A stretch of DNA of 64,000 nt from Glycomyces sp. YM15 (GTDB lineage Bacteria > Actinomycetota > Actinomycetes > Mycobacteriales > Micromonosporaceae), in the NCBI RefSeq assembly GCF_016918015.1, contig NZ_JAERMK010000011.1, positions 119,186 to 183,185 of the forward strand, written 5' to 3'. Shown here piece after piece: positions 7,132-26,281 of this stretch. Below the pieces are notes generated by a model. It was not told the origin of the DNA, searched no databases, and was given only the letters and a program-made list of their open reading frames with translations. The translations under genes and the position numbers were made by a program. Position 1 is the stretch's first letter, and each line of letters starts with the position of its first letter.

Positions 7132-8286
7132 CTAGACTTCGAGGTTCAAGCGGTAACCGCGTTTGATCACGGTCTCCACACAGGACCGGAGATGCACGGC
7201 GTCCCGCAGGCGGGTCACCGCCATCTCGACGGCGTGGCCGTCGGCACCGCGCGGCAGATGGCCGAGCAGTTCAGCGCGCGAGAGGACCTTGCCGTTCGCG
7301 GAGGCCAGCGCTCGTATGACGGCCATCGGGGCGGGCGGGAGCTGGAACGGCTGGTCGTCGAGGAGGACCATGTGGCCGCGCAGCTCGATGCTGTGCCCCG
7401 TCGCGAGCTGGAGCTTGCGGGAGCGCTTGGGCAGGGCCGAGGCGACGGTGCGCACGAGCGCGCCGAGGCGGGCCCGCTGCGGCTGCACCGATTCGACGCC
7501 GAGGCGGGTGAGCGGCGCGGCGGTGATGGGGCCGACCGAGACGGAGAGGACGCCGTTGTCCTCGGCGGAGGCGCGGAACGCCTCCAGCATGTCGGCGGCC
7601 TGGTCGCCGGCGATGCGCAGCAGCGCGTTCGCGGCGGGCGCCGACGTGAAGGTCACGGCGTCGATGCGGCGGGCGCAGATGGCGTCCACGAGGCGCTGCA
7701 CGGGCGTGATGTCGGTGGGCAGGGTCCAGCGGTAGACCGGGACGGCGACGGCCGCGCCGCCGCCGTCGCGGACGGTCTGGATGAAGTCCTCGGCGGGGTC
7801 GCCGTGGAGCTGGATCGCGACCCGTTGGCCGCCCACCCCGCGTTCGCGCAGGTACTCGACGACCTCGTCGCCGGTCTCGCTCGGCGCGGTCCACTCTTCG
7901 GTGAGACCGGCCGCGCGCACCGCGCCGAGGGCCTTGGGGCCGCGGCACAGGATGCGCGCGCGGCCCAGCACGGTGAGCAGGTCGTCGCCCATGCCCCAGC
8001 CCTCGGCCGCTTCGAGCCAGCCGCGGAAGCCGATCCCGGTGGTCGCCACCACCAGGTCGGGGGCCTCGCGGATGAGCTCCACTGTGGCCGCCCGCAGCGC
8101 CTCGTCGTCCGGGAGCGGGACGATGCGCAGCGTCGGGGCGACCACCGTCCGGGCGCCGCGGCGCTCGAGCAGGGTCGCCAGCTCGTCGGCGCGGCGCTGC
8201 GCGGTGACGGCCACGGTGTAGCCGGTCAGCGGTGCGAGCGCCGAGTCGGCGGCGGCTTCACGGGAAGGGGCTGGGGCTGCGACCAT
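7132..8286 (-). CDS. nnaR: HemD-like nitrate/nitrite regulator NnaR (uroporphyrinogen-III synthase fold plus winged helix)
   Basis: Two-domain protein of 384 residues. Residues about 20-255 resemble uroporphyrinogen-III synthase (HEM4 fold), and residues about 285-384 form an OmpR-type winged-helix DNA-binding domain ending in SCVETVIKRGYRLNLEV. This domain order matches NnaR of Streptomyces and mycobacteria, which acts with GlnR to activate nitrite-reductase genes. Its ATG overlaps the nirD stop by one base (TGATG), so it is co-translated with the nitrite reductase it probably controls. Whether the HEM4 part still makes uroporphyrinogen III, or only senses a tetrapyrrole, cannot be told from sequence. 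Confidence 0.85.
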   Translation of the reverse strand: MVAAPAPSREAAADSALAPLTGYTVAVTAQRRADELATLLERRGARTVVAPTLRIVPLPDDEALRAATVELIREAPDLVVATTGIGFRGWLEAAEGWGMGDDLLTVLGRARILCRGPKALGAVRAAGLTEEWTAPSETGDEVVEYLRERGVGGQRVAIQLHGDPAEDFIQTVRDGGGAAVAVPVYRWTLPTDITPVQRLVDAICARRIDAVTFTSAPAANALLRIAGDQAADMLEAFRASAEDNGVLSVSVGPITAAPLTRLGVESVQPQRARLGALVRTVASALPKRSRKLQLATGHSIELRGHMVLLDDQPFQLPPAPMAVIRALASANGKVLSRAELLGHLPRGADGHAVEMAVTRLRDAVHLRSCVETVIKRGYRLNLEV

Positions 8287-8627
8287 CAGGCGCTCGCTTT
8301 CACTTCCGAGTTGACGCCGACGCGGACCTCGCCGTCGTGGACTTCGACGGCGAAGACCTCGAGGGCCACCGTCTCGTCGTCGAGGCAGACGCCGGTCTTG
8401 AGCGAGAACGCCTGCTTGAGCAGGGGGCTGGTGACGATCGGCTCGCCGCCGCGGTCGCCGACCAGGCCCCGGCTCATGACGTTCGCGTCCATGAACGGGT
8501 CCAGGTTGGACACGGCGTAGAGGCTGTCGTCGGCGAGGCGGAACACCGCGACCTGGGTGCCGTCCTCCAGGAGGGCGGCCACCCCGCGGCCGGGGATGAT
8601 GCGATCGAACTCGCAGATTGCTTGCAT
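8286..8627 (-). CDS. nirD: Nitrite reductase small subunit NirD
   Basis: Small subunit (113 residues) of the cytoplasmic NAD(P)H-dependent assimilatory nitrite reductase. It has a Rieske-like beta fold that lacks the Cys/His cluster ligands, as is normal for NirD: residues in the VSNLDPF and SPLLKQAFSLKTG segments replace them. The start is an ATG at 8627, five bases after the nirB stop. The nnaR start overlaps its stop. It belongs to the operon running from 12528 down to 7132. Confidence 0.93.
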   Translation of the reverse strand: MQAICEFDRIIPGRGVAALLEDGTQVAVFRLADDSLYAVSNLDPFMDANVMSRGLVGDRGGEPIVTSPLLKQAFSLKTGVCLDDETVALEVFAVEVHDGEVRVGVNSEVKASA

Positions 8628-8632
8628 TGCAA

Positions 8633-11110
8633 TCACTTCCTTACAGGCGTGCCGAGGGCGACGGGCGTGCTGTGCGAGCGCTCGGTGGACCCGGCCGGGA
8701 ACTTCTGGCCGCGGACCTCCTCGAACTCGATCTTCGGGTCCGGCGCTTCGGGTGCGTTGACGAAGGACACGAACCGCTGGAGCTTCTCGGGGTCGTCGAT
8801 GACGCCCTTCCACTCGTCGGCGTAGTTCTCGACGTGCTTCTCCATGAGCGCGTCGAGCTCGCCGCAGATGCCGAGCTTGTCGTCGACGATGACCTCGCGG
8901 AGGTAGTCGATGCCGCCTTCGAGGCCTTCGACCCACTTCGAGGTGCGCTGGAGGCGGTCGGCGGTCGAGATGTAGAACATCAGGAACCGGTCGATGGTCC
9001 GCACCAGCGTCTCGGAGTCCACGTCGGACAGCAGCAGGTCGGCGTGGCGGGGCGTGAAGCCGCCGTTGCCGCCCACGTACAGGTTCCAGCCGTGCTCGGT
9101 GGCGATGATCCCGAAGTCCTTGCCGCGAGCCTCGGCGCACTCGCGCGCGCAGCCGGACACGGCCGACTTGAGCTTGTGCGGGCTCCGCAGGCCGCGGTAG
9201 CGCAGCTCCAGGTCGATGGCCATCTTCACCGAGTCCTGGACGCCGTAGCGGCACCAGTCGGTGCCGACGCAGGACTTGACGGTGCGCAGGGCCTTGCCGT
9301 AGGCGTGGCCGGACTCGAACCCGGCGTCCACGAGCTTGCGCCAGATCTTCGGCAGGTCCTCGACGCGCGCGCCGAACATGTCGATGCGCTGGCCGCCGGT
9401 GATCTTGGTGTAGAGGTCGAACTCCTTGGCGACCTCGCCGATGACGATGAGCTTGTCCGGGGTGATCTCGCCGCCGGGGATGCGCGGGACCACCGAGTAG
9501 GTGCCGTTGCGCTGCATGTTCGCCAGGAAGTGGTCGTTGGTGTCCTGGAGGGACGCCTGCTCGCCTTCGAGGATGTGCCCGTTCGAGAGGCTCGCGAGGA
9601 TCGACGCCACGGTGGGTTTGCACAGGTCGCAGCCGATGCCGGTCCCGTAGCGGGCGATGAGCTCCGAGAAGGTGGTGATGCCGGTGACCTTGACGATGTC
9701 GAACAGCTCCGCCCGGGACTGGGTGAAGTGCTCGCACACCGCGTTGGAGACCTCGACGCCGCCTTCCTTCAGCAGCTGCTTGAGCATCGGGACGCACGAG
9801 CCGCAGGAGGTGCCGGCCTTCGTGCAGGCCTTGAGTTCGCCGACGTCCTTGCAGCCCTGCTCGTGGATGGCGCCCATGATGTCGCCCTTGGTGACCGCGT
9901 TGCAGGAGCAGACCTGCGCGCCGTCGGGCAGGGCGCCCTCGATCTCGCCGCCGCCGAGGAGATCGGCCAGCTTGCCGGGGACCTTGCCGCCCACGGAGGC
10001 GCGCAGCAGCGGGTAGGGCTCGGCGTCGCCGACGAGCATGCCGCCCAGGAGCGTCTGCGCGTCGTCGGAGAGGATCAGCTTGGCGTACGTGCCGTGCGCC
10101 GGGTCCAGGTAGGTGGTGGAGAGGGGGCCCTCCATCGCGCCGAACTGGGCGACGTCGACACCGAGGAGCTTCAGCTTCGTCGACATGTCGGCGCCCGGGA
10201 AGGTCGCCTCGCCGCCCGCGAGGCGGTCCGCGACCACTTCGGCCATCGAGTAGCCGGGGGCCACGAGGCCGTAGCACATGCCTTCCATCGCCGCGACCTC
10301 GCCGATCGCGTACACGTCGGGATCGGAAGTGACACAAGAGAGGTCGGTGATGATGCCGCCGCGCTCACCCACCTCGATGCCGCATTCGCGGGCGAGCTGG
10401 TCGCGGGGGCGCACGCCCGCCGCGAAGATGATCAGGTCGGTGTCGTACGCGACGCCTTCGCGGTTGGTCTCCATCCGCAGGCGGCCGGAGGCCGCTGAGA
10501 TCTTCGTGCCGCCCGTCGCGCAGTCGACGCCGATGCCGAGCTTCTCGATGTGCTGTTTGAGGATGCCGCCGCCCGCTTCGTCGAGCTGGCGGGCCATGAG
10601 CCAAGGGGCGAACTCCACGATCTGCGTCTCGAGGCCCAGGAGCTTCAACGCGTTCGCGGCTTCGAGGCCGAGCAGGCCGCCGCCGATGACCACGCCGTGG
10701 CGCTTGCCCTCGGAGTGCGCCTTGATGGCCTCGAGGTCGTCGATCGTGCGGTACACGAACACGCCCTCGAGATCGGCGCCTTCCATCGGCGGCACGAACG
10801 CGTAAGAACCGGTGGCGAACACGAGCTTGTCGTACGGGTACTCGCCGGAGTCGGTGTACACGACCTTGCTGGTCCGGGCGATCGAGACGGCCGGCTCGCC
10901 CAGCTTCACCTCGACGTTCGGCAGGTCCGAGGCGAGCGAGAGCTCCTCGGCGCTGACCCCGTCGAAGAACGCCGACAGGCGCACCCGGTCGTAGGCCGGG
11001 CGGGGCTCCTCGCAGAGGACCGTGACCTCCCACGACGGGTCGCGCTGGGTGACCGCCTCCAGGAACCGGCGGCCGACCATGCCGTCGCCGATGACTACCA
11101 ACTTGCTCAT
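8633..11110 (-). CDS. nirB: Nitrite reductase large subunit NirB
   Basis: Siroheme and FAD enzyme (825 residues) that reduces nitrite to ammonium with six electrons from NAD(P)H. In order: an FAD/NAD(P) oxidoreductase domain (GDGMVGRRF at the N-terminus and GGGLLGLEAA for NAD(P)), a BFD-type [2Fe-2S] domain (CSCNAVTKGD with a GTSCGSC pair, about residues 405-455), then the nitrite/sulfite-reductase repeats with the siroheme-[4Fe-4S] ligands CVGTDWC and SGCAREC. Its ATG overlaps the stop of the upstream FAD oxidoreductase by four bases (ATGA), so the two are translationally coupled. All cofactor ligands look intact. Confidence 0.96.
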   Translation of the reverse strand: MSKLVVIGDGMVGRRFLEAVTQRDPSWEVTVLCEEPRPAYDRVRLSAFFDGVSAEELSLASDLPNVEVKLGEPAVSIARTSKVVYTDSGEYPYDKLVFATGSYAFVPPMEGADLEGVFVYRTIDDLEAIKAHSEGKRHGVVIGGGLLGLEAANALKLLGLETQIVEFAPWLMARQLDEAGGGILKQHIEKLGIGVDCATGGTKISAASGRLRMETNREGVAYDTDLIIFAAGVRPRDQLARECGIEVGERGGIITDLSCVTSDPDVYAIGEVAAMEGMCYGLVAPGYSMAEVVADRLAGGEATFPGADMSTKLKLLGVDVAQFGAMEGPLSTTYLDPAHGTYAKLILSDDAQTLLGGMLVGDAEPYPLLRASVGGKVPGKLADLLGGGEIEGALPDGAQVCSCNAVTKGDIMGAIHEQGCKDVGELKACTKAGTSCGSCVPMLKQLLKEGGVEVSNAVCEHFTQSRAELFDIVKVTGITTFSELIARYGTGIGCDLCKPTVASILASLSNGHILEGEQASLQDTNDHFLANMQRNGTYSVVPRIPGGEITPDKLIVIGEVAKEFDLYTKITGGQRIDMFGARVEDLPKIWRKLVDAGFESGHAYGKALRTVKSCVGTDWCRYGVQDSVKMAIDLELRYRGLRSPHKLKSAVSGCARECAEARGKDFGIIATEHGWNLYVGGNGGFTPRHADLLLSDVDSETLVRTIDRFLMFYISTADRLQRTSKWVEGLEGGIDYLREVIVDDKLGICGELDALMEKHVENYADEWKGVIDDPEKLQRFVSFVNAPEAPDPKIEFEEVRGQKFPAGSTERSHSTPVALGTPVRK

Positions 11111-12528
11111 GCTGACACCTCATTCAATTGCTCGGCAGCCTGACCGATTCCAGCGACGGTGCTGTTCAGCCACTTGCACAGACCCGCGACGTCCTCGGCA
11201 CAGGTGCCGCAGCCGGTCGAGGCCTGCGTGGCCTCCGACAGGGCCTCGGGCGTGCGCGCTCCACTGAGGAACGCGGAGCCGAGCTCCCCTTTCGTGACGT
11301 TGTTGCAGCGGCAGACCACGACCTCGTCGGACATGGAAGCCGGAGTATCGGGGGCCACCGACACGGACTCGCCGGGGCGGCCCATCAGGAGGGTGCGGCG
11401 GTCGTGCGGCACCGGGTCACCGGTGTCGAACAACTGGACCACCTGGCCCACCATGGGGTTGTCGCCGAGCATGACCGCGCCCGCGAGGCGGCCTTCGGCG
11501 TCGATGACCAAGCGGGCGTAAGTGCCTCGCGTCGGGTCCGCGAACGAGACGACCTCGTCGCCTTCGACCTCGCCCATGGCGGCGAGCTCGATCCCGGAGG
11601 CCTTCAGGCGGGTCACCAGGCGCGACCCTTCGTAGGCCGCGTCCGGGTTCACACCGGAGAGCAGGTCGACCACGACGTCGGACTGCTCCCACGCCGGGCC
11701 CACCAGTCCGTAGGGGATGCCGCGGTGCTCGGCGCAGTCGCCGACCGCGAACACGTCCGGATGGGAGGTGCGGCACTGGTCGTCGATCTTCACCGCGCGA
11801 CCGCAGTCGATCCCGATCGAGCGGGCCAGGTCCGCGTTGGGGCGGATCCCGCACGAGACGACCATGAGCTGGCCGGTGATGGTGCGGCCGTCCGCGAGCA
11901 CGAGGGTGAGGCCGTCGTCGCCGTGGATGACGCGCGTGGTCTGCGCGTCGACGATCGACTGGACGCCGACCTCGGCGTAGGAGTCGGCGAGGACTCTGGC
12001 GCCCAAGGGATCGAGCTGCCGGTCCATCAGGTGTCCGGCCGCGTGGACCACGGTGACGTCCATCCCGCGCTTGGCGAGCCCGCGCGCGGCCTCGAGGCCG
12101 AGGAGCCCGCCGCCGAGCACGATGGCGCTGGCGCGGTTGGCGGCCTCGTCGAGGATCGAGCGGGCGTCATCGATCGTGCGGAGCACGTAGGCGCCGGTGG
12201 GCAGCGGCAGCAGCCCGGGGATGGGGGGTACGAAGGCCTCCGCGCCGGTCGCCAGGACCAGCTTGTCGAAGGCGACGCCGTTGACCGTCTTGTGCTCGAG
12301 GTCCACGGTCTCGACCGCCTCCCCGAGGCGCACTTCGACGTTCTCGGGCGGGACCGGCAGGGCGATCTCGTCCTCGGTCTGCTTGCCCGCGATCATGCTC
12401 GAGAGCAGGATGCGGTTGTAAGCGGCCTGGGGTTCGTCACCGAACACGGTGACCTCGACCCCGCGACGCCCGAGTTCGCGGGCGATGCGGGCCCCGGCCA
12501 TGCCGTAACCGACGATCGCGACCTTCAC
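11107..12528 (-). CDS. FAD-dependent NAD(P)H oxidoreductase with BFD-type [2Fe-2S] domain, nitrite-reductase associated
   Basis: A 473-residue protein that resembles the N-terminal half of NirB. It has an FAD-binding GYGMAGARIAREL segment at the N-terminus, an NAD(P)-binding GGGLLGLEAARGL segment, and a C-terminal BFD domain (CRCNNVTKGE and STGCGTC). It lacks siroheme domains, so it cannot reduce nitrite alone; it may pass electrons to NirB or to the nitrate reductase. The GTG at 12528 has a GGGAGG box eight bases upstream, which decides the start over longer readings. It is the first gene of the nirBD-nnaR operon. Comparable pairs occur in Streptomyces nir loci. Confidence 0.88.
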   Translation of the reverse strand: MKVAIVGYGMAGARIARELGRRGVEVTVFGDEPQAAYNRILLSSMIAGKQTEDEIALPVPPENVEVRLGEAVETVDLEHKTVNGVAFDKLVLATGAEAFVPPIPGLLPLPTGAYVLRTIDDARSILDEAANRASAIVLGGGLLGLEAARGLAKRGMDVTVVHAAGHLMDRQLDPLGARVLADSYAEVGVQSIVDAQTTRVIHGDDGLTLVLADGRTITGQLMVVSCGIRPNADLARSIGIDCGRAVKIDDQCRTSHPDVFAVGDCAEHRGIPYGLVGPAWEQSDVVVDLLSGVNPDAAYEGSRLVTRLKASGIELAAMGEVEGDEVVSFADPTRGTYARLVIDAEGRLAGAVMLGDNPMVGQVVQLFDTGDPVPHDRRTLLMGRPGESVSVAPDTPASMSDEVVVCRCNNVTKGELGSAFLSGARTPEALSEATQASTGCGTCAEDVAGLCKWLNSTVAGIGQAAEQLNEVSA

Positions 12529-16616
<4,088 letters not shown>

Positions 16617-16697: not shown

Positions 16698-18125
16698 ATG
16701 ACCGACTCCGTCGTCGACGACACCTCGGCCGCCCCCCAGCAGACCTCGAACGGACAGCAGCCCCAGACCAGCCTCAGCACCGCCGCCGCCCGAAATCTCG
16801 CCAGCACCACCAAGTCGGCACCGCAGATGCAGGAGATCACCTCCCGGTGGCTCCTGAAGATCCTCCCGTGGGTGCAGACCCAGGGCGGCGCGTTCCGCGT
16901 CAACCGGCGGCTGACCCACACCGTCGGGGACGGGCGCGTCGAATTCACCAGCGAGGGCGACGCCGTCCGTGTCATCCCCACCGAGCTCGGCGAGATCGCG
17001 CACCTGCGCGGCATCGACGACGAGGCAGTCCTGACCGCGCTGGCCGACCGCTTCGAGCAGCGCGAGGTCCAGGCCGGCGAGCACCTGGCGCAGCAGGGCC
17101 GGCCCGTCGACGGGCTGCACCTCATCGCGCACGGCCGCGTCGAGCAGTTCGGCTCCGGGCCCTTCGGGGACCAGGCCTCGCTCGGGCTCATGGTCGACGG
17201 CGACCACTTCGGCGACGAAGTCCTCACCGAAGACGATCCCGTGTGGGACCACGACGTCATAGCGGCGACCCCGGTCACCGTGCTCACCCTCTCGGCCGCC
17301 ACGGTCGCCGAGCTCGTGGAGCGCATCCCGGCGCTCGCGTCGCACCTGGAGCAGTTCAGGGAGGCCGTCCGCTCGGCGAACACGAACCGGCACGGCGAGT
17401 CGGCGATCGCCATCGCCGCCGGCCACACCGGCGAACCGGACCTGCCGCGCACGTTCGTCGACTACGAGCTCACGCCCCGCGAATACGAGCTGTCGGTGGC
17501 GCAGACGGTGCTGCGCGTCCACACCCGCGTCGCGGACCTCTACAACAAGCCGATGAACCAGATGGAGCAGCAGCTGCGGCTCACCGTGGAAGCCCTGCGC
17601 GAGCAGCAGGAGGACCAGATGGTGAACAACAAGGAGTTCGGACTCCTGCACAACGCGGCGCTGAGCCAGCGCATCCCCACCCGCTCGGGCCCGCCCACCC
17701 CGGACGACATGGACGAGCTCATCAGCCGCCGCCGCAAGCCCGAGTTCCTCCTCGCCCACCCGAAGGCCATCGCCGCGTTCGGCCGCGAATGCACCAAGCG
17801 CGGCATCTACCCGAGCACGGTGGACTTCCACGGGCACCACATCCCGGCGTGGCGGGGCATCCCGATCCTGCCGTGCAACAAGATCCCGATCAGCGGGGCG
17901 CGCACCACCTCGATCCTCTGCATGCGCACCGGCGAAGCCGACCAGGGCGTCGTCGGCCTGCACCAGACCGGCCTGCCCGACGAGTACGAGCCCGGGCTCT
18001 CCGTGCGGTTCATGGGCATCGACGAGAAGGCCGTCATGTCGTACCTCGTGAGCGCCTACTACTCCGTCGCGGTCCTGGTCCCGGACGCGCTCGGCATCCT
18101 CGAGCACGTCGAGATCGGACGCTGA
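16698..18125 (+). CDS. Family 2B encapsulin shell protein with inserted cyclic-nucleotide-binding domain (EshA-like)
   Basis: A 475-residue member of the EshA/SrpI-related shell proteins (HK97 fold) that self-assemble into nanocompartments. A disordered Gln/Ser/Ala-rich N-terminus (1-40) is followed by the first shell segment (about 40-100, [19 protein letters not shown]), an inserted CRP-type beta-roll (about 105-215, with a phosphate-cassette-like [10 protein letters not shown]), and the remaining shell domain (about 245-475, [39 protein letters not shown]). The cassette lacks the usual Arg, so cNMP binding is uncertain. The ATG has AGGAAG eight bases upstream. In Streptomyces, relatives sit beside 2-methylisoborneol or prenyl-synthase genes. 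Here the next genes are a prenyl diphosphate synthase and ispH. A 15-bp-stem hairpin separates shell and cargo genes. Confidence 0.92.
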
Positions 18126-18129
18126 GAAT

Positions 18130-18167
18130 CCCGGGCGGCCGCCCCCGCACTTGGGCGGCCGCCCGGG
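18130..18167. terminator. Strong hairpin between encapsulin and prenyl synthase genes
   Basis: CCCGGGCGGCCGCCC and GGGCGGCCGCCCGGG pair perfectly over 15 bp with an eight-base loop, five bases after the encapsulin stop. It could act as a leaky terminator or 3'-end stabiliser that sets more shell mRNA than cargo mRNA. No T-run follows, as is common in high-GC genomes. Confidence 0.75.
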
Positions 18168-18218
18168 CCCCGCGACGCACGCGATCCCCGCAGACCCCGC
18201 CGCCCAGGGAGGCCCCGC

Positions 18219-19235
18219 ATGACCGTCCTGACCGATCACACCGCCGCCCGCGAGGCCGTCGACGCCGGACTCCGCGCCGCCGCCGCCCGGCTCCCGGCCC
18301 CCGCCGCGCGCATCGCGGCCTACCACTTCGGCTGGACCGACGCCTCAGGCTCGCCCGTCCAGGCCAACTCCGGCAAGGCCCTGCGGCCGGTCCTGACCCT
18401 GCTGGCCGCCAAGGCGGTCGGCGGCGAGGAGGGCTGGCGGCAGGCCGTCCCGGCAGCTGTGGCCGTCGAGATGGTCCACAACTTCTCCCTCATCCACGAC
18501 GACATCATCGATCGCGACAGCCTGCGGCGGCACCGCCCGACCGCGTGGAAGGTCTACGGCGTCAACGACGCGATCCTCGTCGGCGACGCCCTCCATGCAC
18601 TGGCGTTCGAGGTCATCGCCGAATCCGGGGGCGACCGGGTCCCGGCGGGCACGAGCCTCCTCGCGCAGACCGTGCGGGCCCTCATCGAAGGGCAGCTCGC
18701 GGACACGCGGTTCGAGAGCCGCGACCGGGTCGAGCTCGCCGAGTGCGTCGCGATGTCCGAGGCGAAGACGGCCTCGCTCATGGGCTGCGCGACCGCGCTC
18801 GGGGCGCTCTTCGGCGGCGGCACCCCGCGGCAGGTCGAGGCGCTGCGGGACTTCGGGTACCGCCTCGGGTTGGCGTTCCAGCACGTGGACGACCTGCTGG
18901 GAATCTGGGGCGACCCGGCGGTCACCGGCAAGGCCGTCTACTCGGACCTGCGCAACCGCAAGAAGTCGCTCCCGGTGACCGCGGCGCTCGACTCCGGGCA
19001 CCCCGACGCGTCCGAGCTCGCCGCGATCTACGGCGCCGGCGGGCAGCTCACCGAGTCCGAGCTCCGCCGCGCCGCCGACCTCGTCGAGGCCTGCGGCGGC
19101 AGGCGGGCGAGCCTGCGCTCGGCCGAGCTGCTCACCGAGGCGGCCACCGGCAGTCTCAGCGTGGAAGGCCTCCGGGCGGAGGCCGTGGAGGAACTCTCGG
19201 GGCTGGCCGCGAGCACGGTCCACAGGGCTCATTGA
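18219..19235 (+). CDS. Polyprenyl (trans-isoprenyl) diphosphate synthase, likely encapsulin cargo
   Basis: A 338-residue head-to-tail prenyl elongase that condenses IPP with allylic diphosphates. It has the GKALRP substrate loop (Lys at about 53), the first Asp-rich motif DDIID at 94-98, and the second DDLLGIWGD at 224 onward; residues upstream of the first motif (EMVHNFSLIH) are bulky, in line with a GGPP-or-shorter product, though chain length is inference. The ATG has GGGAGG six bases before it. Prenyl transferases are recurrent cargo of family 2B encapsulins; here the N-terminal arm before the fold is only about 40 residues and shows no obvious long disordered targeting tail. ispH follows after 34 bases. 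Confidence 0.92.
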   Translation: MTVLTDHTAAREAVDAGLRAAAARLPAPAARIAAYHFGWTDASGSPVQANSGKALRPVLTLLAAKAVGGEEGWRQAVPAAVAVEMVHNFSLIHDDIIDRDSLRRHRPTAWKVYGVNDAILVGDALHALAFEVIAESGGDRVPAGTSLLAQTVRALIEGQLADTRFESRDRVELAECVAMSEAKTASLMGCATALGALFGGGTPRQVEALRDFGYRLGLAFQHVDDLLGIWGDPAVTGKAVYSDLRNRKKSLPVTAALDSGHPDASELAAIYGAGGQLTESELRRAADLVEACGGRRASLRSAELLTEAATGSLSVEGLRAEAVEELSGLAASTVHRAH

Positions 19236-19269
19236 TGGCTCGCAGGCTTCACCGAGGGGAGCGCCCCAG

Positions 19270-20229
19270 ATGACCCGCCGACTTCGTCGCGTGCTCCTCC
19301 CCGCGCCGCGGTCGTTCTGCGCCGGCGTGGAGCGGGCGATCGAGATCGTCGAACGCCTCCTCGACGAGCACGGCCCGCCCGTGTACGTGCGCAACCAGAT
19401 CGTCCACAACGCGCACGTGGTGGCGGACCTGGAGTCGCGCGGCGCGGTCTTCGTCGGCGAGCTCGACGAGGTCCCCGACGACGCGCTCGTGGTCTTCAGC
19501 GCCCACGGCGTGGCCCCGGCGGTCGAACGCGAGGCGGCCGCACGCGGTCTCGACGCGGTCGACGCGACCTGCCCGCTCGTGTCGAAGGTCCACGCCGAGG
19601 CCAGGCGCGCGGCCGACAACGGCGACACGGTGATCCTCATCGGACACGAAGGCCACGAAGAGGTCGTCGGCACGCTCGGCGTCGCCCCGGAGCGGACCCT
19701 CCTGGTCGAAAGCGCCGATGCGGTGGCGACGCTCCGGGTCCCCGATCCGGCGCGGCTCACGTACCTGAGCCAGACGACCCTCGCGGTCACCGAGGTCGAG
19801 ACCATCGCCGAAGCCCTGCAGCAGCGCTTTCCCGCCATCAAAGGCCAAGGGGCCGATGACATCTGCTACGCCACGAGCAACCGCCAAGCTGCGGTCGCCG
19901 CGGTCGTGGAGGAGGCCGACGTGGTGCTGGTGGTCGGCTCGGCGAACTCCTCCAACTCGAACCGCCTGGTGGAACTCGCGCGAACCGCGGGCGTCGAGGC
20001 GCACCTGATCGAGGACGCGAACGCCGTCGACCCGAGATGGCTCGAAGAGGTCGCGACCGTGGCCGTCACCGCGGGCGCTTCAGCACCGCCGAGGCTGGTG
20101 GACGAAGTCGTGCGGTCCCTGGCAGAACTGGGCCCGATCGAGATCGTCGAACGAGTCCACACCCGTGAGACCCAGGAGTTCCTACTCCCCCAGCGACTCC
20201 GGCCCGCCGCCCCGAACCGCGGCCGCTGA
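19270..20229 (+). CDS. ispH: 4-hydroxy-3-methylbut-2-enyl diphosphate reductase IspH
   Basis: Last enzyme of the MEP pathway, a [4Fe-4S] reductase that makes IPP and DMAPP from HMBPP. The 319-residue protein has the three conserved cluster cysteines: SFCAGVERA (C17), VDATCPLVSKVH and DDICYATSNRQ. It also has the substrate-binding VHNAHVV, SAHGV and IGHEGHEEVVGT histidine/Glu segments and SANSSNSNRL. The start is an ATG at 19270. Genomes of this type usually keep a housekeeping ispH elsewhere; this copy sits in an apparent operon with the prenyl synthase and encapsulin and would feed them with both C5 units. Confidence 0.94.
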   Translation: MTRRLRRVLLPAPRSFCAGVERAIEIVERLLDEHGPPVYVRNQIVHNAHVVADLESRGAVFVGELDEVPDDALVVFSAHGVAPAVEREAAARGLDAVDATCPLVSKVHAEARRAADNGDTVILIGHEGHEEVVGTLGVAPERTLLVESADAVATLRVPDPARLTYLSQTTLAVTEVETIAEALQQRFPAIKGQGADDICYATSNRQAAVAAVVEEADVVLVVGSANSSNSNRLVELARTAGVEAHLIEDANAVDPRWLEEVATVAVTAGASAPPRLVDEVVRSLAELGPIEIVERVHTRETQEFLLPQRLRPAAPNRGR

Positions 20230-20335: not shown

Positions 20336-20947
20336 ATGACCGTCGAACTCCCCGCCCTCCCCTTCCCCCTCGACTGGGAAGACGCCCTCGAACCGCCGAG
20401 CTGGCAGGTCACCGACACCGGGCTCGAAGCGACCGCCGCCGCAGGCACCGACTGGTACGTCTACGCCCCCGCGCCCGCCCTCCACGCCCCGGCCGACGGC
20501 GCCCGCCTCCTCGGCCTGCCGCCGGAGGGCGACTGGCAGTTCAGCGCCCGCATCACCGTCGACTTCAACGGCAGATACGACGCCGGGACCCTCTTCCTCC
20601 TCGCCGACGAGGCACACTGGTCGAAGCTGTGCTTCGAGTACTCGCCCGACGAGCAGGGCATGGTCGTCTCGGTCGTCACCCGCGGCGTCTCCGACGACGC
20701 CAACGCCTGGAACGTCGAGGGCGACACGGTCTGGATGCGCGTCAGCCGCATCGGCGCGGGCTTCGCCTTCCACGCCTCCGCCGACGGCGAACGCTGGGAG
20801 TTCGTGCGCTGCTTCGGGTTCGGCGTCGACACCCCGGTCAAGGCCGGCTTCGGCGTCCAAGCCCCCGAAGGCCAGGGCTGCACCGTCCGATTCACCGAGA
20901 TCGCCTTCAAGCAGGAGACCCTCGCCGACCTCCGCAACGGCTCCTGA
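20336..20947 (+). CDS. DUF1349 (concanavalin-like) protein
   Basis: A 203-residue all-beta protein with no signal peptide. The GTDWYVYAP, LFLLADEAHWSKLCFEYSPD and VRVSR-type strands (VWMRVSRIGAGFAFHASADG) and the C-terminal GFGVQAPEGQGCTVRF match the DUF1349 / YesU-like jelly-roll family, thought to bind carbohydrates. The start is an ATG at 20336. It stands alone after ispH, separated by about 106 bases, and its relation to the terpenoid block is unclear. Confidence 0.88.
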   Translation: MTVELPALPFPLDWEDALEPPSWQVTDTGLEATAAAGTDWYVYAPAPALHAPADGARLLGLPPEGDWQFSARITVDFNGRYDAGTLFLLADEAHWSKLCFEYSPDEQGMVVSVVTRGVSDDANAWNVEGDTVWMRVSRIGAGFAFHASADGERWEFVRCFGFGVDTPVKAGFGVQAPEGQGCTVRFTEIAFKQETLADLRNGS

Positions 20948-22464: not shown

Positions 22465-24519
22465 TTACAGCGCGGGCTTCGCGGCCGGGGCGATCTTGAC
22501 GGCGCAGACCTTGAACTCGGGCATGCGGCTGATCGGGTCGAGCACGTCCGAGACGGCGGCGTTGGCGTTGCCCGCGCCGGGGAAGTGGAACGGGCTGAAG
22601 ACCGTGTCGGGCCGGATGTCGGTGGTCAGTCGCGCCGGGGCCGTGTAAGAGCCGCGCCGGGAGGTGACGCGGACCCAGTCGCCTTCGCCGATGCCGTGGC
22701 GCACGGCGGTGTCGGGGTGGATCTGCAGGAACTGCTCGCTGTCAGGCCCGTCGAGGGACTCGATGAGGCGCGTCTGCGCACCCGACTGGTACTGGGTGAG
22801 GACCCGGCCGGTGGTGAGGTACAGCGGGTACGAGCGGTCGCGGCGTTCGGCCGGGTGGCGGTGGTCGACGGCGATGAACTTGGCGCGCCCGTCCGGGGTG
22901 GGGAACTTGAAGTCGGCGAACATGCGCGGCGTGCCGTCGTGGTCGGGGCCGGGGACCGGCCACTGGAAGGTGCGGTCCTCAAGGCGCTCATAGGAGACGC
23001 CTGAGTAGTCGGCCTTGCCGCCGGCGGAGGCGCGGCCGAGCTCCTCGAAGATCGCCTCGGGGTCGGTGGAGTAGGCGCCGGGGGCGTCGAGTCGCGCGGC
23101 GAGCTCCTTCATGATCCACAGGTCGGAGTGGACGCCGTCGGGGGCGCCGCGCAGCGACTTGCGGCGGATGATGCGGCCCTCGAGGTTGGTCATGGTGCCG
23201 TCTTCCTCGGCCCACTGCGTGACCGGGAGGACCACTTCGGCGAGGCGGGCGGTCTCGGACATGACGAAGTCGAACGAGACGAGGCAGTCGAGGTCCTTGA
23301 GGCGGTCGGCGACGCGGGCCGCGCGCGGGGCCGAGACGACCGGGTTGGAACCGAGCACGAACAGCATCTTGACCTCGTCGCCGCACTTGCGCAGCAGTTC
23401 GACGGCGGAGACGCCCGCGCCCGGCAGGGTCTCCGGGTCGACGCCCCAGACCGCGGCGACGTGCTCACGCGCGGCCGGGTCGGTGATCATGCGGTAGCCC
23501 GGGAGCTGGTCGGCCTTCTGGCCGTGCTCGCGGCCGCCCTGGCCGTTGCCCTGGCCGGTGATGCAGCCGTAGCCGGAGCTGGGCTTGCCGGGGAGGCCGA
23601 GGGCGAGGGCGAGGTTGATCCAGGCGGTGACGGTGTCGACGCCCTTCGCGTGCTGCTCGGAGCCGCGTGCGGTGAGAATCGCCGTCTTCTTGCCGGCCAT
23701 GAGGCGCGCGGCGGCGTACAGGTCCGGGACGGAGACGCCGGTGATGCGCTCGACGAACGCGGGCCAGTAGCCGGCGACGGTCTGGCGGACCTCGTCGAAG
23801 CCGTTCGTGTGGGCGTTGATGTAGTCGTGGTCGAGGTAGCCCTGCTCGATCGCGATGTGCAGGAGCCCGTTCGCCAGCGCGAGGTCGGTGCCGGGGGCGG
23901 GCTGGAGGTGCAGCTGGGCCTGCTCGGCGGTGGCGGTGCGGCGGGGGTCGATGACGATGAGCTCGCTTTGAGTCAGGAATCTCATGAGCGGCGGCATGGT
24001 CTCGGCCGGGTTGGCGCCGACGAGGACGATCACGTCGGCGTCCTGCAGGTCTTCCTTCGGGAACGGGAGGCCGCGGTCGATGCCGAAGGAGCGGTTGAGG
24101 GCCCCGGCCGCCGAGGACATGCAGAAGCGGCCGTTGTAGTCGATGTGCTTGCTGCCCAGGGCGAGGCGGGTCCATTTGCCGAGCTGGTAGACCTTCTCGT
24201 TGGTGAGGCCGCCGCCGCCGAAGACGCCGACGGCGTCCTTCCCGTGCTCGGCCTGGACCGCGCGGATGCGGTCGGCGACGTGGTCGAGGGCGGTCTCCCA
24301 GGAGACGGGCTCGCCCCGCAGGAGGGGCGTGGTGAGCCGTTCGGGGTGGTCGAGGAGCTCGGGCGAGGTCCAGCCCTTCTTGCACATGCCGCCGCCGCGG
24401 GGGGCGGCGGTGACCTTGCCTTCGGCGTCCTCCTCCAGCCGCATCCCGCACTGGAGCGCGCAGTACGGGCAGTGGGTGTCGGCGGTGCGGACGACGGGGA
24501 GTGCGGCGCGAACGGTCAT
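22465..24519 (-). CDS. nasA: Assimilatory nitrate reductase, molybdopterin catalytic subunit
   Basis: Cytoplasmic bis-MGD molybdoenzyme of 684 residues that reduces nitrate to nitrite. An N-terminal [4Fe-4S] site is formed by HCPYCALQC (C17, C20, C24) and MCKKGW (C46). Molybdopterin segments include GGGGLTNEKVYQLGKW, VGANPAETMPPLM, ITGQGNGQGGREHGQKADQLPG and the C-terminal MGD-binding TTGRVLTQYQSG. There is no fused ferredoxin or FAD domain, so electrons must come from a partner. The ATG at 24519 is chosen over a longer reading because family similarity begins there and the longer reading crosses the regulatory site. narK lies upstream on the same strand, beyond a hairpin and a GlnR-like box. 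Confidence 0.94.
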   Translation of the reverse strand: MTVRAALPVVRTADTHCPYCALQCGMRLEEDAEGKVTAAPRGGGMCKKGWTSPELLDHPERLTTPLLRGEPVSWETALDHVADRIRAVQAEHGKDAVGVFGGGGLTNEKVYQLGKWTRLALGSKHIDYNGRFCMSSAAGALNRSFGIDRGLPFPKEDLQDADVIVLVGANPAETMPPLMRFLTQSELIVIDPRRTATAEQAQLHLQPAPGTDLALANGLLHIAIEQGYLDHDYINAHTNGFDEVRQTVAGYWPAFVERITGVSVPDLYAAARLMAGKKTAILTARGSEQHAKGVDTVTAWINLALALGLPGKPSSGYGCITGQGNGQGGREHGQKADQLPGYRMITDPAAREHVAAVWGVDPETLPGAGVSAVELLRKCGDEVKMLFVLGSNPVVSAPRAARVADRLKDLDCLVSFDFVMSETARLAEVVLPVTQWAEEDGTMTNLEGRIIRRKSLRGAPDGVHSDLWIMKELAARLDAPGAYSTDPEAIFEELGRASAGGKADYSGVSYERLEDRTFQWPVPGPDHDGTPRMFADFKFPTPDGRAKFIAVDHRHPAERRDRSYPLYLTTGRVLTQYQSGAQTRLIESLDGPDSEQFLQIHPDTAVRHGIGEGDWVRVTSRRGSYTAPARLTTDIRPDTVFSPFHFPGAGNANAAVSDVLDPISRMPEFKVCAVKIAPAAKPAL

Positions 24520-24541
24520 GCGGCGAGTGTGACCGGGAGTC

Positions 24542-24579
24542 GTTTCGGCGTCACGTGAGCAATGTTTCCGGAATGCTAA
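24542..24579. promoter_or_regulatory. Phased GlnR-like operator upstream of nasA
   Basis: GTTTC-n6-ACGTG-n6-GTTTC-n6-GCTAA repeats at 11-bp spacing, with the two GTTTC boxes 22 bp apart. The right half repeats the sequence before the nirB operon (12689-12709) nearly exactly, in the same orientation to the controlled gene. It lies 23-60 bases before the nasA start, which is promoter-proximal. Confidence 0.55.
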
Positions 24580-24580
24580 G

Positions 24581-24617
24581 TGGCCCGCAATCGTCACGAA
24601 GTGACGATTGCGGGCCA
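24581..24617. terminator. 17-bp-stem hairpin between narK and nasA
   Basis: TGGCCCGCAATCGTCAC-GAA-GTGACGATTGCGGGCCA is a perfect 17-bp stem with a three-base loop. It most likely ends or attenuates narK transcription and gives nasA its own promoter. It directly abuts the GlnR-like box. Confidence 0.75.
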
Positions 24618-24675
24618 TGGCTAACGACCTGGCGACGACGGTGTCTCAGTCGAGGGGCTGGCGGTCGGACCGGGG

Positions 24676-26091
24676 TCAGACCTTGGCGTAGGCGAGGCTC
24701 GGGGCGCGGTCGACGAAGACCTTGCGCTGGTAGAACCACCAGTTCATGCCCAGGAAGAGCACGTAGCCGCCGAGGAAGACGTACATGGCGATCACGACTG
24801 AGCCGGTCTGCTCGTTGGAGATCCGGAAGCCCTGGTTGATGAGGAATCCGCCGAAGGCGCCGATGGCCGAGATCCAGCCGAGGGCGGCCGCGGTCAGCTT
24901 CTTGGCCTGCACGACCTCGGCCTCGTTGGTCTCGCGGCCGGCGGTCGCGGTGGCCTCGGCCTGGAAGATCGCCGGGATGGACCGGTAAGTCGAGCCGTTG
25001 GCGACACCGCTCATGAGGAACAGCACCATGAAGGAGATGAAGAACAGCGGGAACGAGTTCAGGTTGATCCCGCCGATGGCGCCGAGGACGCCGCCGCCCA
25101 TGAGGATGAACGAGAGGCTGGTGATCGGCGCACCCGCCCATTTGTCGGCCAGGTAACCGCCGACGGGACGGGAGAGCGAGCCGACCAGCGGGCCGAGGGC
25201 GGCCAGCCACAGGGACTGGAACTCGGGGAACTCGATCTTGATGACCAGCGGGAACGCGAACGAGTAGCCGATGAAGGACCCGAAGGTGCCGATGTAGAGC
25301 ACGCTCATGATCCAGGTGTGCTTGCGGGCGAGCGCGGGGAGCTGCTCCTTGATGGGAGTGCGCGAGACCGCGAGGTTGTCCATGTAGCGCCAGGCCATGA
25401 GGGCGGCGAAGAGCCCCAGGACCATCCACATCAGCGGCACGTTGTGCAGGTAGATGGCCGTGCCGGTCTCGGTGGTGCCCTGCGAGACGCCGAAGATGCC
25501 CACGGCCAGCGCGAACGGGCCGATGAACTGGACGGCCGGGACGCCGATGTTGCCGCCGGCGGCGTTGACGCCGAGGGCGGTGCCGCGGTAGCGCTCCGGG
25601 TAGAAGAAGGAGATGTTGGCCATCGAGGAGGCGAAGTTGCCGCCGCCGAAGCCGGCGGTCACACCCGCCACGATGAACAGCCAGTACGGCGTGCCCGGGT
25701 TCATCACGCAGTACGCCAGCAGGGACGTCGGGATGACCAGCAGCGCTGCCGAGATGATGGTCCAGTTGCGGCCGCCGAAGATCGCCACGGCGGCGGTGTA
25801 GGGGATGCGCAGGAACGAACCCACGAGGTTGGGCACCGCGGTGAGCCAGAACAGCTGGCTGGTGGTGAACTCGAACCCGGACGCCGCCAGGTAGGGGGCG
25901 ACGATGGAGAACATCACCCACACCGAGAAGCCCAGGTGCTCGGCCACGACGGACCACAGCAGGTTGCGCCTGGCGACCTTGCGCCCCGTCGACTGCCAGA
26001 AGGCCTCGTCGTCGGGACGCCAGTCGCTGATCCAGCCCTTGCGGGCGCCGGTCGGCTTTTCAGCCGTCGATTGCGTCAGAGTCGTTGTCAT
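24676..26091 (-). CDS. narK: Nitrate/nitrite transporter, NarK family (MFS)
   Basis: Major-facilitator protein of about 471 residues with 12 predicted membrane segments. It carries the NarK-family nitrate signature regions GFGGGNFASSMANISFFYP and, in the second half, the related Gly-rich stretch around SFMVLFLMSGVANGSTYRSI, plus conserved arginines in the early helices (RIPYTAAVAIFGGRNW). It brings in nitrate for the adjacent NasA. The ATG at 26091 is one choice; an in-frame ATG at 26106 is possible, and neither has a strong ribosome binding site. Confidence 0.93.
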   Translation of the reverse strand: MTTTLTQSTAEKPTGARKGWISDWRPDDEAFWQSTGRKVARRNLLWSVVAEHLGFSVWVMFSIVAPYLAASGFEFTTSQLFWLTAVPNLVGSFLRIPYTAAVAIFGGRNWTIISAALLVIPTSLLAYCVMNPGTPYWLFIVAGVTAGFGGGNFASSMANISFFYPERYRGTALGVNAAGGNIGVPAVQFIGPFALAVGIFGVSQGTTETGTAIYLHNVPLMWMVLGLFAALMAWRYMDNLAVSRTPIKEQLPALARKHTWIMSVLYIGTFGSFIGYSFAFPLVIKIEFPEFQSLWLAALGPLVGSLSRPVGGYLADKWAGAPITSLSFILMGGGVLGAIGGINLNSFPLFFISFMVLFLMSGVANGSTYRSIPAIFQAEATATAGRETNEAEVVQAKKLTAAALGWISAIGAFGGFLINQGFRISNEQTGSVVIAMYVFLGGYVLFLGMNWWFYQRKVFVDRAPSLAYAKV

Positions 26092-26281
26092 GCGCCCTAC
26101 ATTCACGGAGCGTCATTGCCTGGACGTGCGGCGACTGTTCCTCGACGATGAAGTTCGGCTCACGGTTCTGTTACGGAGGGTGTGAAAGGTGCGCTGCCGC
26201 GGCGGGTGTACGCGGCCCGGTCGCGTACACCCGTAAGGCGAGAACCCGGTCACAAAGACTGATGGCATAGCGTTAACGACC

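Follow-up and report, generated by a model that had tools for sequence, protein, structure and literature searches.

The closest described systems to the locus considered here are the family 2B encapsulin operons containing terpene cyclases or polyprenyl transferases (Andreas and Giessen 2021; PMC8346489), the two-component family 2B shell of Streptomyces lydicus (PMC12407261), and hopanoid gene clusters with an HpnG-IspH fusion, as at locus L216 and its kin. The portions of PMC8346489 used here describe a putative cargo motif of shell-linked cyclases, GPTGLGTSAAR, located in the linker and repeated at the C-terminus, and a disordered N-terminal domain of 50-100 residues in the cargo polyprenyl transferases; they also state, in general words, that the elongase systems 'often' encode precursor genes. 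In the portions of PMC12407261 used here, S. lydicus Enc1 by itself does not assemble, and the cyclic nucleotide monophosphate (cNMP)-binding-like domain of such a shell showed no binding of cyclic nucleotides. Here we describe a locus in a 64,000-nucleotide stretch of Glycomyces sp. YM15 (contig NZ_JAERMK010000011.1; the whole stretch is referred to as the window), where the gene for a family 2B encapsulin is followed on the + strand by those for a prenyl elongase and IspH (16698-20229) and preceded by a geosmin-synthase-like cyclase and a bestrophin-like gene. The features are:

12839 (about) to 15150, + strand: two-domain geosmin-synthase-like terpene cyclase (PF19086 in two stretches; NF041168 at 1090 bits, cut-off 1200)
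13865 to 13900, + strand: 12-residue cyclase linker motif resembling GPTGLGTSAAR (by comparison with the PMC8346489 motif)
15822 to 16616, + strand: bestrophin-like membrane protein, perhaps the first gene of the run (PF14023 at 171 bits; AlphaFold model)
16698 to 18125, + strand: family 2B encapsulin shell protein (NF041163 at 766 bits, cut-off 400; PDB 9bhu at 658 bits)
17061 to 17324, + strand: cNMP-binding-like domain inserted in the shell protein (PF00027, residues 122-209)
18130 to 18167, + strand: perfect 15 bp GC hairpin lacking a T run, between the shell and elongase genes
18219 to 19235, + strand: short-chain prenyl diphosphate synthase (elongase) of the geranylgeranyl diphosphate (GGPP) or farnesyl diphosphate (FPP) type (PF00348 at 204 bits; NF041169 at 428 bits, cut-off 450)
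19270 to 20229, + strand: accessory IspH, the second copy in the genome (TIGR00216 at 303 bits, cut-off 188; 51% identical to the other copy, L001)

We read this locus, with a probability of about 0.5, as a family 2B terpenoid operon of the cyclase/elongase kind, in which the shell would have the geosmin synthase as cargo, the elongase would lie in or near it, and IspH would be a dedicated free enzyme. The single-type shell would most likely enclose the neighbouring geosmin synthase, and the elongase would make an allylic diphosphate inside or beside it; the extra IspH, the last enzyme of the methylerythritol phosphate (MEP) pathway, would be free in the cytosol and would raise the supply of isopentenyl and dimethylallyl diphosphates while the operon is on, and the bestrophin-like gene of the same run would encode a membrane channel partner of the shells. 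Gene content, gene order and their conservation are established directly, as are the membership of IspH in an accessory clade, its status as a surplus copy, and the genome-wide co-occurrence of the cyclase and the bestrophin-like protein with the shell; enclosure, a role in flux, co-transcription and channel activity are what we infer from these. An earlier note on this DNA had also read the run as a shell operon of the family 2B terpenoid kind, and that much is supported; the matches also bear out the shell with its inserted domain, the elongase and IspH in the same-strand run, and the geosmin synthase and membrane protein upstream. Its remark that no terpene cyclase lies directly beside the shell is mistaken, since geosmin synthase is itself a cyclase and is encoded one gene away.

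The shell was searched for in 397 genomes of the order, of which 73 carry it, and in 396 genomes of the phylum, of which 16 do (that of the window, 11 of the same class, all from one genus, and four of other classes). Every listed shell locus was taken with at most 20 kb of surrounding DNA, and 175 of the 186 stretches (185 loci and the window) were kept in the neighbour tables, those dropped being L001 and L002, which have no shell, and others with repeated shell sequences; genome counts carry no kinship correction except in within-genus contrasts. By tblastn, 10 of 11 Glycomyces genomes from the order sample, the window counted, have the same five-gene order, and at the exception (L149) the contig begins just upstream of the bestrophin-like gene; the shell protein of Glycomyces luteolus (L003) is 98% identical to that of the window. 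Across the order, ispH lies beside the shell in 36 of the 73 shell genomes, representing 12 genera, and the elongase is present in all 36, with none of the 73 having a shell-linked ispH without it. The conserved ispH linkage that the earlier note had put forward for checking is thus found. In the phylum sample, ispH is near the shell in all four shell genomes of other classes (L166, L178, L184, L185), and L184, which is outside the order, has the shell and ispH with no elongase in its stretch, close to a contig end. Eleven of 80 named loci have ispH (in Glycomyces, Nocardiopsis, Amycolatopsis, Phytomonospora, Saccharothrix and Actinokineospora), and the 30 shell-elongase loci of the Streptomyces type, of which 20 are named and 10 come from a single genus, all lack it. 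At several loci (e.g. L012, L101, L102 and L162) dxs and/or ispG adjoin the linked ispH, those at L012 being confirmed by TIGR00204 and TIGR00612, and because these genes follow ispH the linked set can cover the opening enzyme of the MEP pathway together with its final two. At L121, L128, L131 and L135 the cyclase lies between two shell genes and is split into a slightly overlapping pair of genes, one for each domain, with the elongase, ispH and dxs coming next, and at L226 (G726) a broken shell gene, possibly a shell loss, sits next to the elongase, ispH and a bestrophin-like gene.

The linked ispH is an additional gene: at least two copies are present in all 36 linked genomes, as compared with 10 of the 37 other shell genomes and 39 of the 324 shell-less ones. 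In a tree of 86 IspH proteins (from a quick search, with matches shorter than 270 residues excluded, five identical rows merged, and L226 counted as shell-linked despite its broken shell gene), 19 of the 21 copies labelled housekeeping separate from the rest with a Shimodaira-Hasegawa-like approximate likelihood ratio test (SH-aLRT) support of 97; the exceptions are L247, which is mislabelled and adjoins a squalene-hopene cyclase, and L249. The shell-linked label needs seven changes on this tree against a shuffled mean of 28.9, so that it is clustered and not a single clade, and the 12 Glycomyces copies form one clade. The window protein has all nine of what we take to be the conserved Cys/His/Glu motifs of IspH (4-hydroxy-3-methylbut-2-enyl diphosphate reductase), namely FCAGV, IVHN, SAHGV, ATCPLV, GHEEV, SQTTL, DICYAT, NSSNSNRL and TAGASAP.

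Geosmin synthase tracks the shell across whole genomes. It is present in 27 of 28 shell genomes and one of 172 shell-less genomes in a 200-genome sample (G000-G120 and G501-G579), and in 42 of 45 and none of 34, respectively, in a second set picked by family and shell before the geosmin outcome was seen. Within family f15 the figures are 52 of 53 with the shell and one of 25 without, and shell and cyclase co-vary in the five genera variable for both (g22, g282, g285, g290 and g298). The exceptions are G118, with the cyclase and no shell, and G033, G595, G689 and G750, with the shell and no cyclase at the threshold used. The cyclase is often encoded far from the shell, and a form of the linker motif is present in 14 of 18 readable cyclases of this kind outside Glycomyces (both strands were scanned; L285 is unread). 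Because it combines a cargo-like linker motif with this genome-wide tracking, geosmin synthase appears to be a somewhat better cargo candidate than the elongase. The window cyclase frame has no stop until about 16256-16258, so its true 3' end is uncertain. An antisense gene on the - strand (15100-15744) overlaps the 3' end of this frame, and is found in several Glycomyces with a conserved signal-like N-terminus, a membrane-like C-terminus and a variable Pro/Ser/Glu-rich middle.

Several observations weigh against a shell filled with geosmin synthase and supplied by its own IspH. The linker motif is termed only 'putative' in the consulted part of PMC8346489, a second, C-terminal copy was not found in the window cyclase, and the cyclase score is below the cut-off of the NF041168 cargo family, a level passed by just 10 of the 79 places listed in two surveys. 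Four of the 18 distant cyclases (L266, L277, L281 and L282) are without the motif, and the cyclase of the shell-less genome G118 (L275), the sole shell-less control, has a form of it, so the motif may be a general geosmin synthase trait. Geosmin synthase uses FPP according to the same part of PMC8346489, and an elongase making GGPP would not feed it. The ispH gene is not linked in 37 of the 73 shell genomes of the order, and it is in the shell stretch of none of the 11 same-class shell genomes (one genus) of the phylum sample. Kin of the window IspH also occur without shells, some of them in hopanoid clusters, so that the linkage is not special to shells.

The same note placed the elongase within the shell, and an enclosed prenyl-diphosphate factory of this kind, perhaps with IspH inside as well, is a possible arrangement that we nonetheless find doubtful. 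The elongase directly follows the shell gene at 110 of 116 non-redundant elongase loci, and in a tree built by FastTree the window elongase groups (local support 96) with shell-linked elongases, the clade comprising 111 of these, three others and none of 11 hopanoid ones. Six shell-linked elongases of other genera exceed the cut-off of the cargo model NF041169, at 455-503 bits, but the two Glycomyces proteins do not (428 bits in the window, 426 at L004). A hopanoid-cluster elongase also matches this model at 403 bits, so a match below the cut-off says little, and the family name was dropped as proof of cargo. Neither a long N-terminal extension nor an EVLAWSR-like segment was found at the N-terminus of the window elongase, and there are 51-57 residues ahead of GKALRP in the Glycomyces proteins (51 in the window) as opposed to 58-104 at the 30 Streptomyces-type loci; many shell-linked elongases outside Streptomyces have equally short N-termini, however, and length alone carries little weight. 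Both Asp-rich motifs reported earlier are present along with the PF00348 match (HDDIIDRD and DDLLGIWG), although the second is DDxxG rather than DDxxD, and an aromatic residue five before the first would, by a rule we assume to hold here, suggest a GGPP product. On balance the Glycomyces elongase is a weaker cargo candidate than the note supposed. As for IspH, the enzyme requires an electron-donor protein, which an enclosed copy would not readily reach, and the window protein carries no N-terminal extension. Shell-linked IspH proteins of Amycolatopsis, Nocardiopsis, Phytomonospora and others do have an extra N-terminal piece, and this extension (~90-120 residues, with a GLG stretch) was considered as a cargo tag and rejected, as part of it aligns to HpnG; a weak match in the shell-less L229 also counts against a tag. 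The HpnG-like piece is seen at L018 (14025-14375), L012, L019, L025, L103, L105, L107, L109, L156, L157 and L162.

The match of this piece to HpnG (profile to profile, probability 97, E 2e-10 over ~50 columns, with five column-shuffled controls at 0.2 or lower) raises the question of whether ispH is merely a relic of a hopanoid-type cluster, co-regulated with the shell and having no functional tie to it. At L216 HpnG and an IspH belonging to that larger clade form a fusion protein (TIGR03468 at 45 bits, below the cut-off of 187; PF01048 at 33 bits, above the cut-off of 25), whose gene is accompanied by hpnC, hpnD, hpnE, a squalene-hopene cyclase, hpnH and dxs. Squalene-hopene cyclase itself is mostly missing where ispH is shell-linked (5 of 36 linked genomes against 20 of 37 other shell genomes, one of these broken, with kinship uncorrected) and was found in none of the 11 Glycomyces genomes (E 1e-60), and the linked ispH appears damaged or split in two of the 36 genomes (L088 and L156). 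Yet the gene is kept with the shell and elongase across the 12 genera of the order (L184, without the elongase, is outside it), its motifs are intact in the window, and the loss of HpnG while IspH is retained points to use; we therefore hold the relic to be rather improbable, a shade more so than an enclosed elongase. The simplest history would be that a hopanoid-type HpnG-IspH gene was co-opted and that HpnG then decayed, to be lost fully in Glycomyces, the HpnG remnant suggesting the source of the supply gene. Since HpnG-IspH fusions from hopanoid clusters belong to its clade and an HpnG remnant persists in some linked copies, the shell-linked IspH is more probably free, serving supply, than enclosed. 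A further alternative starts from the membrane protein, whose PF14023 domain is presumably the DUF4239 of the earlier note. Its AlphaFold model (mean predicted local distance difference test score, pLDDT, 81.8) has a bestrophin fold, with Z 17.9 over 245 residues at 3.5 Å to the Klebsiella homologue 6iv3, unrelated rows starting at Z 11.4; bestrophins are anion channels, and the proposal that this protein uses the prenyl product gives way to an ion channel fold. PF14023 is present in 25 of 28 shell genomes (as a single copy in 24) and in 16 of 172 others of the 200-genome sample, and 31 of 73 genomes have the gene no more than 5 kb from the shell, in 17 of those 31 on the opposite strand, so this is not one operon simply retained. 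The bestrophin-like protein thus looks like a recurrent shell partner and not an obvious prenyl user. That shell and channel are the real unit, handling ions or small molecules with the terpene genes as passengers, is nevertheless very improbable, given that 42 of the 73 genomes have no bestrophin-like gene in the shell stretch and that elongase linkage is stronger (59 of 73). Extending our preferred operon in the other direction, geosmin synthase could be a general family 2B cargo even when encoded far away, with the Glycomyces shell, bestrophin channel and private hopanoid-derived IspH forming an odorant factory that is coupled to the membrane and draws on a C5 supply of its own; this is speculative, and we think it unlikely, though less so than the passenger scenario.

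The shell protein has the family 2B domain order, with an SrpI-like domain (PF19307, residues 225-475) after PF00027, and its closest solved structures are 9bhu, 9bje and 9bix; the 'beta-roll' insert of the earlier note is the cNMP-binding domain by whose insertion family 2B is defined. At loci with two shell genes, motif 1 is VWK in 69 of 71 upstream shells and RRR in 70 of 71 downstream shells, and single shells have RRR in 88 of 102. Motif 2, compared by alignment, ends in P in 92 of the 102 single shells, 70 of the 71 upstream and five of the 71 downstream shells. The window protein is of the mixed single type, with an Enc2-type motif 1 (RRRK) and an Enc1-like 10-residue motif 2, and because S. 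lydicus Enc1 alone fails to assemble, it would fall on the assembly-competent side at motif 1.

The intergenic gaps are only 81 (bestrophin-like to shell), 93 (shell to elongase) and 34 bases (elongase to IspH), which is compatible with a single transcript spanning these four genes. A promoter scan gives two promoter-like sites (0.2 in shuffles): the 3' end of the bestrophin-like gene contains a + strand site, and the gap that follows has a site on the - strand. A terminator scan finds terminator-like sites at the chance level (3, with 2.7 expected). A hairpin of 11-16 bp with changed letters lies 3' of the shell gene at all 11 Glycomyces loci with the gap read, and one of at least 13 bp is at the same place at 16 of the 30 Streptomyces-type loci; such a hairpin could result in more shell than enzyme being made, but that of the window folds just two standard deviations better than shuffles. 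Downstream of ispH is a gene for a DUF1349 protein (20336-20947, + strand), which we exclude from the operon because, of the non-redundant loci shown, just the window, L003, L006, L158 and L159 have it as a cluster. Genes resembling nitrite reductase (8286-12597, - strand) and nitrate reductase/transporter (22465-26106, - strand), assigned by eye, flank the shell region, as clusters c12, c22 and c23 do in other Glycomyces too, and the shell region looks as if it were inserted into a nitrate assimilation region.

A word search of the main text of PMC8346489, to which the supplement is external, found no mention of IspH, the MEP pathway, bestrophin or DUF4239, and what we have used of that paper reports the linker motif and operon counts and not the genome-wide co-occurrence of shell and geosmin synthase. 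In word searches of the paper library used, no paper combined 'encapsulin' and 'IspH', and none paired bestrophin-like or DUF4239 proteins with encapsulin or EshA, the matches being only to encapsulin plus EshA. Set against the known systems, the locus shares with the family 2B operons of Andreas and Giessen (PMC8346489, as far as its consulted text goes) a shell with a cNMP-like insert, a geosmin-synthase-like cyclase with a linker motif of this form, an elongase near the shell and the presence of precursor genes, and differs in having one shell gene, a bestrophin-like gene and an elongase without a long N-terminal extension. The two-component shell of S. lydicus, in the part of PMC12407261 used, is of the same shell family and both of its diagnostic motifs are recognisable in the window protein, but the latter is single and mixes an Enc2-type motif 1 with an Enc1-like motif 2. 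Hopanoid clusters of the L216 type share the larger accessory IspH clade, and L216 has an elongase and dxs nearby, but they have no shell, a full HpnG domain, and squalene and hopene enzymes. If terpene-linked shells are compartments that have a C5 supply of their own and probably a channel as partner, this would offer a purpose for them that can be put to the test, and if the co-occurrence survives correction for kinship, a common smell of soil would be tied to a protein compartment in the order studied. We therefore regard the Glycomyces locus as a variant of the known precursor-carrying elongase operons, and single out three features that the earlier note did not stress: the genome-wide tracking of shell and geosmin synthase, the partner protein with a bestrophin fold, and a supply gene that probably came from a hopanoid cluster.

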